A DNA stretch of 36,785 nucleotides from Halorubrum sp. Hd13. Lineage in GTDB: Archaea > Halobacteriota > Halobacteria > Halobacteriales > Haloferacaceae. Location: contig NZ_NHOY01000031.1 of the NCBI RefSeq assembly GCF_002252755.1, forward strand, positions 1 to 36,785. Reading direction: 5' to 3'. The position numbers and the translations under genes were made by a program. The notes under the pieces were generated by a model. It had not been told where the DNA came from. It did no database searches and saw only the letters and a list, made by a program, of their open reading frames with translations. Below, piece by piece: positions 3,354-6,607 of the stretch (positions within the stretch are counted from its first letter, which is position 1; the number at the start of each line of letters is the position of its first letter).

Positions 3354-4304
3354 ATGACCGAGAGCGCGAACGGCGCGGGCGGCGACGCACCCGGCGACGA
3401 CGACCCGGACGCGACGACGATCATCGACGGGGAGTCCGTCGCGGCCGACGTGCGCGCCGACGTGGCCGCGCACGTCGAGACGCTGGCGGACGCCGGCGTG
3501 ACGCCCGGGCTCGCCACCGTTCTGATGAGCGACGACCCCGCGAGCGAGACGTACGTCTCGATGAAACAGCGCGACTGCGAGGAGGTCGGCATCGAGAGCG
3601 TCCACGTCGAGATCGACGCCGACGCGCCCGCCGACGAGCTGTACGAGACCATCGACGACCTCAACGACCGCGACGACGTCCACGGCATCCTGGTCCAGCT
3701 ACCCGTCCCAGACCACGTCGACAAGCGGAGCGTCCTCCGGCGGATCGCCCCCGAGAAGGACGTGGACGGCTTCCACCCGGAGAACGTCGGGCGGCTCGTC
3801 GCCGGCGACGCCCGGTTTAAACCCTGTACGCCACACGGCGTCCAGAAGCTCCTCGCGGCGTACGACGTGGAGACCGAGGGCGCGGACGCGGTCGTCGTCG
3901 GCCGGTCGGACATCGTCGGGAAGCCGATGGCGAACCTCCTGATCCAGAAGAGCCCGGTCGGGAACGCGACCACGACGGTCTGTCACTCCCGGACCGAGGA
4001 CCTGGAGGGGAAGCTCGCGGCCGCCGACATCGTGATCGCGGCCGCCGGGATGTCCGAGTTCGTCGACGGCTCGATGCTCAAGCCCGGTGCGACCGTGATC
4101 GACGTCGGGATAAATCGGGTCGAGGCGGAGACGGAGAAGGGGTACGAGCTCGTCGGCGACGTGGACTACGAGTCGGCGACGGAGGTCGCGGGCGCGATCA
4201 CGCCGGTCCCCGGCGGCGTCGGGCCGATGACGCGGGCGATGCTCCTTCACAACACGGTGAAGGCGGCGGGGATCCAGTCCGACGTCGCGATCGACCTCGA
4301 TTAG
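3354..4304 (+). CDS. folD: Bifunctional methylenetetrahydrofolate dehydrogenase / methenyl-THF cyclohydrolase FolD
   Basis: A 316-residue enzyme that interconverts 5,10-methylene- and 10-formyl-tetrahydrofolate with NADP for C1 metabolism. Visible family motifs are TYVSMKQRDCEEVGI with the catalytic Lys, VDGFHPENVGRL, VVVGRSDIVGKPMANLL (Rossmann nucleotide site) and ITPVPGGVGPMTRAML. An acidic extension of about 22 residues precedes the conserved IIDGESVA, which is common in halophiles. The ATG at 3354 is preferred over an in-frame TTG at 3327, which lies inside the promoter. The gene is monocistronic and converges on the next gene across 83 bases. Confidence 0.95.
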   Translation: MTESANGAGGDAPGDDDPDATTIIDGESVAADVRADVAAHVETLADAGVTPGLATVLMSDDPASETYVSMKQRDCEEVGIESVHVEIDADAPADELYETIDDLNDRDDVHGILVQLPVPDHVDKRSVLRRIAPEKDVDGFHPENVGRLVAGDARFKPCTPHGVQKLLAAYDVETEGADAVVVGRSDIVGKPMANLLIQKSPVGNATTTVCHSRTEDLEGKLAAADIVIAAAGMSEFVDGSMLKPGATVIDVGINRVEAETEKGYELVGDVDYESATEVAGAITPVPGGVGPMTRAMLLHNTVKAAGIQSDVAIDLD

Positions 4305-4387: not shown

Positions 4388-4945
4388 CTACGTCTCGGGC
4401 CGCCACCGTCCCCCGATCTCGTCGCGGGGATAGTCCTGATACGTGCCGTCCAGAAACGTGGTGACGCGCCCGTCCTCCTCGCTGAGCGTGACCCCCCAGA
4501 GGACGTCGTCGCGGAGCGACGTCTCCAGGGCGCTCATGTGTTTGGTCCCCATCCAGTCGGGGAACTCGAGGTCCTCGACGTTCTCGACCTCGCCCCGGTA
4601 GGGGTTCCGGACGCGCACCATCTGACGCTGAATCGTGCCGTCGCCGGTCACGATGACGGCGCCGTCTCGGCTGAACGCCACGTCCCGAGCGACCTTCGTG
4701 AACACGTCGCGCGACTCGGTGACGACGCGGCAGCGGTCGACCGGCCACTCGTTGTCGCCGAGGGGGTCGGTGTAGTCTGCGAAGTTCACCTCCGCGACGA
4801 TGAGGATGTAGAGACTGGGACCGCTCACGTACTGTTCGCCCCACTTATCGAACTCCATGCTCAGCGACTCGGCGGTGTACCTGATGTGATCCATCAGGCT
4901 CTGGCTCGTCGCGTACTTCTGGAGCACCTGGTCAAGCGCGTTCAT
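4388..4945 (-). CDS. Diadenylate-cyclase (DisA_N/DAC)-like protein, divergent active site
   Basis: A 185-residue protein whose C-terminal half matches the DAC domain pattern. It has SRDGAVIV (residues 92-99, the DGA motif) and then WMGTKHMSALETSLRDDVLWGVTLSEEDG (split here for description: GTKH at 133-136), corresponding to GTRHRAA...SEETG in bacterial cyclases. DAC enzymes join two ATP molecules into c-di-AMP. Here the RHR triplet reads KHM, so activity is uncertain. Residues 1-50 look helical and include a YILIV strand; no TM segment is evident. The ATG at 4945 is chosen from the TATA at 4973-4980. It could be a divergent relative of archaeal DacZ or a catalytically altered paralogue. The next gene upstream on the same strand is a nucleotidase. 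Confidence 0.65.
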   Translation of the reverse strand: MNALDQVLQKYATSQSLMDHIRYTAESLSMEFDKWGEQYVSGPSLYILIVAEVNFADYTDPLGDNEWPVDRCRVVTESRDVFTKVARDVAFSRDGAVIVTGDGTIQRQMVRVRNPYRGEVENVEDLEFPDWMGTKHMSALETSLRDDVLWGVTLSEEDGRVTTFLDGTYQDYPRDEIGGRWRPET

Positions 4946-4972: not shown

Positions 4973-4980
4973 GTATTAAA
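4973..4980 (-). promoter_or_regulatory. TATA box of the DAC-like gene
   Basis: TTTAATAC on the minus strand, 28-35 bases before the ATG at 4945. It indicates an own, probably leaderless, promoter rather than read-through from the nucleotidase gene. Confidence 0.65.
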
Positions 4981-5066: not shown

Positions 5067-5132
5067 GCCGCGCAGTCGATGTCGGCCGCGCAGTCGATGT
5101 CGGCCGCGCAGTCGATGTCGGCCGCTCAGTCG
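5067..5132. repeat. Tandem repeat, 18-base unit, running into a stop codon
   Basis: Three perfect copies of GCCGCGCAGTCGATGTCG (5067-5084, 5085-5102, 5103-5120) and a 12-base partial copy (5121-5132). The partial copy contains the nucleotidase stop codon (complement of TCA at 5126-5128), where the full repeats have GCA. The array therefore looks like amplified end-of-gene sequence just past the stop. Confidence 0.9.
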
Positions 5133-6607
5133 TCGTCGCCGGCGGCCGCGCGGTTCCGAATCTCGATGCGGCCCTCGATCTCGGGGTCGATCCCGTGTTC
5201 GCGGGCGTAGGCGGCGAGCACCTCGTACTGGATGTCGGCCTCGTCGATCCGGTGTCGCTGCCCGAGCGTCGGGAACTCGTGTTCGGAGTGGAGCAGGTAC
5301 TCCGAGACGGCGACGGTGTAGCGACGCTCCGGGTCGATCGGCTCGCCGCCGACGGTCGCCTCCAGGACGAGCTCGGCGTCGGCGTCCCAGACGACCTCGG
5401 CGTTCGAGACGTGTCCGTGCCACCAGTCGTCCTCGCCGAAATCGACGTCGGGCGCGGCCATCTCGCGGAACACGTCGTGCAGCTCCGCGCCGGTGACCGA
5501 GGCGAGCGCCACGGGCTCCTCGAACGGGATCAGGCTGATGAGGTCGGCCTTCGTCACCTCGCCCGCCCACGGGTCGCCCTGCCGGAGCCCGCCGGCGTTC
5601 GAGAGCCCCACGTCGGCGTCGTGGGCCCAGCGGAACGCGTCGGCGACGAAGTTGCCGACGCGGCACTCGCCGCCGTGGACAACCTCGCCCGTGCGCTCAA
5701 TCGGCCGGTCGACGACGTCGAAGGCCTCCGAGAGGTCGGCCGCGGCCATCCGCTCCGCGAGGGCGTCTTCGAGGCCCGGCGCCGGATCGGCGCCGTCGGG
5801 CTCGTGGAGCGTCGCGGTCGGGACGGGAGTTCCGGCGTCGTTCGCCGCGGCGTCGCCCGACCCGTCGGCCATCGCGTCGCTCGGAGCGCGTCCGCCGAAC
5901 TCCACCTCGGCCACCGTCTCGCCGTTGACGCCGGGGCGGACGATCCGGGTACCGGCGACGACGTCGTTCCGGCGGCTGTGGACGTGGCCGCCGAGGATCG
6001 CGTCCACGTCCAGCGCCCGCGCGAGGTCGTCGTCGCCCGCGCCGAGATGGGAGAGGACCACGGCGTGATCGAGCGCGTCGGCGTCGGTCCCGCTCGCCCC
6101 CTCGGCGACCGCGGCCCGCATCTCGGCGAGGGCGTCGCGCGCGGCGGCGACCGGGTCGTCGAATGAGAGCTCGGCGGCCATCGGGTTCAGCGAGTCGGTG
6201 GCGGGGTCGGTGACGCCGACGAACCCGACCGCGGCTCCGTCGACCTCGCGGACCGCCCACGGGACGACGCCCTCGTCGCGGCCGAACGGCTCGCCCGCCT
6301 CGTCGCGGACGTTCCCGGAGACGAACGTCGCCGGCGCGTCGGCGACGAGCCCGCGGAGCGCGTCCGGGCCGTAGTCGAACTCGTGGTTGCCGAACGTGTC
6401 GAGCTGAGTGCCCGTGGCCCGGTAGAAGTCGAGGACTTGCCGCCCGCTCGCGACCAGCGACAGGACGCCCGGCGCGGTCGTGTCGCCGGTGGCGACGACC
6501 GCGGCGTCGGGGCCCGAGAGCGCCCGGATCCGGCCGGCGAGGCGAGCCGCCCGCTCGGGGGCGTCGAAGACGTTCTCGATGTCGGAGTAGTGAACGAGAC
6601 GGACCAT
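5126..6607 (-). CDS. Bifunctional metallophosphatase / 5'-nucleotidase (UshA-like)
   Basis: A 493-residue, two-domain enzyme. The N-terminal calcineurin-like metallophosphatase domain shows YSDIEN, GDTTAP, GNHEFD and GGHVHS metal-ligand motifs. The C-terminal 5'-nucleotidase domain shows GNFVADAFRWAHDADVGLSNAGGLR. Such enzymes hydrolyse nucleotides or 2',3'-cyclic nucleotides. The first motif reads DxE where the classic form is DxH, so one metal ligand may differ. There is no signal peptide, so a cytosolic location is expected, unlike periplasmic UshA. The ATG at 6607 has a T-rich promoter 30-39 bases upstream. It lies just upstream of the DAC-like gene on the same strand, so a shared nucleotide-second-messenger role is conceivable but unproven. 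Confidence 0.88.
   Translation of the reverse strand: MVRLVHYSDIENVFDAPERAARLAGRIRALSGPDAAVVATGDTTAPGVLSLVASGRQVLDFYRATGTQLDTFGNHEFDYGPDALRGLVADAPATFVSGNVRDEAGEPFGRDEGVVPWAVREVDGAAVGFVGVTDPATDSLNPMAAELSFDDPVAAARDALAEMRAAVAEGASGTDADALDHAVVLSHLGAGDDDLARALDVDAILGGHVHSRRNDVVAGTRIVRPGVNGETVAEVEFGGRAPSDAMADGSGDAAANDAGTPVPTATLHEPDGADPAPGLEDALAERMAAADLSEAFDVVDRPIERTGEVVHGGECRVGNFVADAFRWAHDADVGLSNAGGLRQGDPWAGEVTKADLISLIPFEEPVALASVTGAELHDVFREMAAPDVDFGEDDWWHGHVSNAEVVWDADAELVLEATVGGEPIDPERRYTVAVSEYLLHSEHEFPTLGQRHRIDEADIQYEVLAAYAREHGIDPEIEGRIEIRNRAAAGDDD

Follow-up and report, generated by a model that had tools for sequence, protein, structure and literature searches.

Haloarchaea offset external salt by keeping K+ at molar levels inside the cell; in Haloferax, c-di-AMP is an essential molecule. 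In the diadenylate cyclases (DACs) that have been studied, the protomers work head to head (PMC8573169), and both an RHR motif and a DGA motif are required for activity (PMC3328451, PMC13022847). Among the haloarchaea, Mn2+-dependent synthesis of c-di-AMP has been shown for the DacZ of H. volcanii, an enzyme whose N-terminal domain has a PK_C-like fold, and the same Haloferax study reports a single cyclase (PMC6741144). Proteins that bind c-di-AMP include TrkA of Mycoplasma bovis and Streptococcus mitis (PMC13022847, PMC12453120), the Usp domains of KdpD (PMC8214093), and the K+/H+ symporter KimA (PMC10284832).

The window analysed here is the whole stretch of 36,785 nucleotides of contig NZ_NHOY01000031.1 from Halorubrum sp. 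Hd13 (GCF_002252755.1), and it contains a DAC-like open reading frame of 185 codons (Table 1). The initial annotation gave this frame no strand; it lies on the minus strand, and the plus strand of the same interval holds an unrelated frame with nothing DAC-related in its translation. The motifs quoted at the time are matched exactly and at the residues claimed, with DGA as listed in Table 1, GTKHMSALETS at residues 133–143 and SEEDGRV at residues 155–161. The frame is a real gene and not a chance one, since homologues at 98 to 43% identity are found in many genomes (the closest named relative, from Halorubrum sp. Boch-26, being the one at 98%) and dN/dS within the protein's own clade is 0.05–0.27, indicating purifying selection. 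The TTTAA box upstream of the start codon likely serves as the gene's own, near-leaderless promoter.

Table 1. Coordinates in the window of the DAC-like gene, its motifs and its neighbours.
Feature	Position	Strand	Remarks
DAC-like gene, 185 aa, type A (KHM)	4388..4945	-	Halobacteria-restricted family (by sequence matches)
DGA motif, residues 94–96	4658..4666	-	97–100% kept in type A; kept in DacZ
GTKHM, residues 133–137, counterpart of GTRHR/GARHM	4535..4549	-	Lys135 a fixed type A residue; type B and DacZ have Arg
SEE, residues 155–157	4475..4483	-	Glu157 invariant across family; Ser in haloarchaeal DacZ
Arg160, family-specific residue beside SEE	4466..4468	-	No exceptions in type A or B; DacZ has Leu/Met
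TTTAA box, 30 nt 5′ of ATG	4976..4980	-	Kept in six Halorubrum loci
5′-nucleotidase-C-domain protein gene, upstream neighbour	5126..6607	-	Halorubrum core gene, 51/52 genomes
FolD-type methylene-THF dehydrogenase/cyclohydrolase gene, downstream convergent neighbour	3354..4304	+	

The gene product is a true DAC-type protein. The initial annotation had proposed this homology, which is borne out by the profile matches of the homologues and by the predicted structure. The window protein itself matches Pfam DAC (PF02457) over residues 92–168 with a score of 21.3 bits and E = 2e-4. This is a little under the curated gathering cut-off of 27 bits; its homologues score 20.5–39 bits, most of them above that cut-off. 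A PDB sequence search with the window protein returned no convincing match. The AlphaFold model, built from 94 aligned rows (pLDDT 89.4, pTM 0.86) and replacing a first model from 27 rows (pLDDT 65), has the DAC fold, and its 50 best PDB matches are all DAC proteins, namely CdaA, CdaM, DacA/DacM, DisA and the B. cereus protein 2fb5, a CdaS homologue (PMC8573169). These matches have a probability of 1.00, 14–18% identity and E-values down to 1e-6, and those of one earlier model agreed with them; the non-DAC fold against which the initial annotation had cautioned was not seen. Of the sequence motifs, DGA and SEE are present and a strict RHR is absent, with KHM in its place. A strict RHR is an invalid criterion for DAC membership in Halobacteria, however, because active haloarchaeal DacZ also deviates from it, reading RHM.

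Compared with haloarchaeal DacZ (HVO_1660 type; NF041371), the short family to which the window protein belongs shares the DAC domain, DGA, [A/T][R/K]HM, N65, P68, R111 and R145, and it occurs in the same genomes. The short proteins measure ~185 aa against ~270 aa for DacZ and lack its N-terminal half; in the model of the window protein only 44 residues stand ahead of the first DAC strand, with no PK_C-like N-terminal domain. Where DacZ reads SES and carries Arg in the RHR-like motif, the short family reads SEE-x-G-R, and its type A has Lys. The window protein reaches 19.6 bits against NF041371 over residues 91–167, short of the full-length cut-off of 430 bits, and the dacZ-mscS operon, a feature of DacZ, is missing from the window copy. 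With the DAC domains of bacterial CdaA/DacA, CdaM, CdaS and DisA the short family has in common the fold, DGA, GT[R/K]H and SEE, but its third motif residue is Met or Leu rather than Arg, the first is Lys in type A, and there is no membrane, coiled or HhH domain.

The initial annotation suggested looking for a second, canonical DAC gene in the genome, and there is one. A DacZ on contig C29 scores 487 bits to NF041371, the DacZ equivalog, and is followed downstream by an MscS-type channel-like gene, a call made from its sequence and from the known dacZ-mscS2 operon. In addition, contig C42 carries a short type B paralogue (36941–37495) with 43% identity to the window protein (45% over the best stretch). 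The two share their length, an N-terminal helix, WMG-x-[K/R]-H-[M/L]-SA and SEE-x-GR, but the paralogue reads DGG and GSRHM, with Arg rather than Lys, and sits after carotenoid-type genes. Type B copies adjoining bacterioruberin-like carotenoid genes (CrtD, LyeJ and CruF types, by sequence) are found in several Halorubrum and related genomes (L082, which is host contig C42, L072, L075, L141 and L142).

The change from RHR to KHM was presented in the initial annotation as a peculiarity of the protein. KHM had been read correctly and its Lys is indeed special, but its Met is ordinary: the DacZ motif is G[A/T]RHM in 31 of 31 genes read, from 31 genomes. To identify Haloferax DacZ we used the primers whose sequences PMC6741144 gives; four Haloferax genomes have exact matches to the forward coding stretch and to the reverse primer, and all four read DGA, GARHM and SES. 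As active Haloferax DacZ reads GARHM, the third Arg is missing from an active enzyme group, and Met in third position is normal among haloarchaea. KHM as a decisive sign of a pseudo-enzyme was accordingly rejected, RHM being the norm in DacZ.

At position 135 of our alignment, all 35 type A rows have Lys, and Arg stands in all 39 type B rows, among which L030 (a Lys-clade member reading RHL) is counted, and in all 19 DacZ rows. The Lys proteins form one supported clade in the tree, with L030 as the single return to Arg, and L030 retains the TrkA and APC neighbours of its Lys-clade kin. Because Lys135 is fixed in 100% of type A rows and found in 0% of type B or DacZ, it is a clade marker, an old, fixed and conservative change that reflects neither local mutation nor decay. 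The good support for the Lys clade, together with the RHL of L030 beside the same TrkA/APC neighbours, makes K and R seem exchangeable at the first place of the motif. Mutation of RHR to AAA abolishes the activity of M. tuberculosis DisA and M. bovis CdaM, a result that concerns Ala rather than Lys. The remainder of the site is well kept in type A, where DGA, H136, S155 and E157 are each conserved at 97–100%. In type B, DGG is found in place of DGA, and SAE or SQE in place of SEE, in some members.

Matches to the short family occur in 118 of 292 Halobacteria genomes. Across the wider phylum, the matches outside Halobacteria are weak (~20 bits, over the DAC region), which is the level expected of other DACs, and the family is confined to Halobacteria. 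A DacZ-type DAC is present in 79 of 79 genomes tested. At least 12 family matches contain stop codons, and the patchy distribution and frequent breakage mark the short gene as dispensable and often lost. Plasmid carriage is common in the family: relatives at 40–73% identity, of both types, reside on 25 haloarchaeal plasmids, where PGAP mostly annotates them as ‘diadenylate cyclase’. One protein accession recurs unchanged on plasmids from Halosimplex and from two species of Halorussus, a sign of recent transfer. A K+-transport plasmid segment (L235, L243 and L251) is likewise shared, with its protein accessions identical, by Halosimplex and Halorussus species, pointing to recent transfer between families. 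One further locus found in the genome search (L062, 4995–6080) holds two adjacent tandem short-DAC copies, both of KHL type, with one in-frame stop in the second.

The relatives of the window gene lie in K+-homeostasis clusters far more often than expected by chance. In chromosomal loci, with the domains of the neighbours confirmed by Pfam, 13 of 83 family genes have a K+/ion-transport gene (match threshold ≥100 bits) no more than 500 bp away, compared with 1.7% of positions in 40 random control loci from the same genomes. Over whole loci of ~10 kb the enrichment is weaker (24/83 vs 4/40, p = 0.02), and the chromosomal enrichment is somewhat inflated, since the HMMs for neighbouring genes derive from these very loci, which also share ancestry. 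The plasmid records, which were annotated by others, therefore provide a better test. Trk/RCK, cation:proton antiporter or MscS genes are present within 7 kb in 14 of 18 plasmid loci. Merging near-copies leaves about eight different arrangements with such linkage and three without it; two of the four loci without such genes have a magnesium transporter. By comparison, 250 kb elsewhere on five of these plasmids contains only two comparable genes.

The tightest arrangement is an APC-Usp permease/dac/trkA/trkH operon with a dac that reads KHL, in which the stop of the permease gene abuts the dac start with no gap (TAAATG; GGAGGAATAAATG). Type B copies, too, can follow an APC permease gene (L074, L079). 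For L074 we considered a fusion of permease and DAC and rejected it, as the two genes are in different reading frames. A window-type KHM copy with 73% identity (L097) has two antiporter/TrkA_N genes 110 bp away and, further out, a Usp gene. Type B copies in L249 and in L076–L090 (Natrialbaceae) have a different conserved context, unrelated to K+: they adjoin genes for DUF790 and a DEAD-box helicase, and on the annotated plasmid lie close to grpE/dnaJ.

Unlike many of its plasmid relatives, which belong to the same family, the window copy lacks K+ genes in its surroundings and is flanked by the 5′-nucleotidase-C-domain and FolD genes. A functional link to the nucleotidase, which might degrade pApA, was rejected; the pairing looks positional, because the nucleotidase is a Halorubrum core gene with or without the DAC-like gene, and the latter has its separate TTTAA box. 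A role in anti-phage defence was also rejected, with no PADLOC match, as was a viral origin, the sole viral-contig matches being to a distant phage DAC. A 167-aa stand-alone DAC is encoded on large viral contigs, IMG/VR entries of 236 and 395 kb (L202, 5740–6240, and L203, whose fetched 12.2-kb stretches are identical), with DGA, GTRHI and SEE and 53 bits to the DacZ model. It stands in a same-strand run with look-alikes (by eye) of SpoVR, DUF444, ribonucleotide reductase and PhoH, and is likely a phage-encoded diadenylate cyclase.

We consider it fairly probable that the window gene encodes an accessory diadenylate cyclase adapted to the control of K+ and osmotic balance, and the gene context of the family favours a role in c-di-AMP/K+ signalling. 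As we infer its catalysis, product, metal, dimer and targets, a stand-alone DAC domain with an N-terminal helix, free of the DacZ N-terminal domain, would pair head to head with a second protomer and bind two ATP with Mn2+ or Mg2+. Binding of ATP and metal through DGA, [K/R]H[M/L] and SEE would lead to c-di-AMP, with Lys135 taking over the phosphate-contact role of the first Arg. This c-di-AMP would be made beside, and not instead of, that of DacZ, and would govern how actively K+ and osmolytes are transported by Trk/RCK proteins, K+/H+ antiporters, APC-Usp permeases and MscS channels. The accessory-cyclase reading is weakened by the dead AAA mutants, by the DGG, SAE and SQE variants of type B, by the window copy's lack of K+ genes, by the patchy and often broken state of the family, and by the weaker enrichment at the level of whole loci.

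The main rival, which we judge unlikely, is that the protein is a DAC-fold sensor or regulatory subunit that has lost cyclisation and binds ATP or c-di-AMP, forming mixed dimers with DacZ or gating adjacent K+ transport proteins. The replacement of the first Arg by Lys throughout type A and the altered motifs of some type B members fit such a role, as do the family-specific Arg160 and Glu141 and the lack of an N-terminal signal domain, and with DacZ in every genome tested, synthesis is already covered. A pure sensor, however, need not keep metal and catalytic residues, and DGA, TKH and SEE are nearly invariant in type A, while the Lys-to-Arg reversion in L030 left the gene context the same. 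The changed residues around the phosphate site (Lys135, Glu141 and Arg160) could instead belong to a cyclase of the same fold with a different product, such as a mixed or linear dinucleotide, but the neighbourhoods offer no hint of another messenger and the linked genes are of the usual c-di-AMP target types; of the explanations weighed here we hold this to be the least probable. It is also very improbable that the gene is a selfish or decaying remnant with no present role: patchy presence, plasmid carriage and broken copies are what such a remnant would show, but the low dN/dS and motif conservation in the window clade and the conserved TTTAA box speak against it.

Of more interest than KHM itself is the second DAC class beside DacZ, with its linkage to K+ transport. 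Among the papers that our literature search covered, none describes either one, and we state the novelty with care. It is possible, rather than probable, that Halobacteria have a mobile second DAC class wired into K+-transport operons. It would act locally on the adjacent transporters, in the role of a dedicated cyclase or, for the Lys clade, of a non-cyclase regulator that binds nucleotides. The second class also probes whether RHR is truly required, as active DacZ does without the last Arg and the Lys clade without the first one too. With targets and a putative cyclase side by side, a mobile DAC in trk, antiporter and permease clusters is a system for testing c-di-AMP control in archaea, and the K+-transport clusters on plasmids suggest a second, accessory c-di-AMP system for salt balance.
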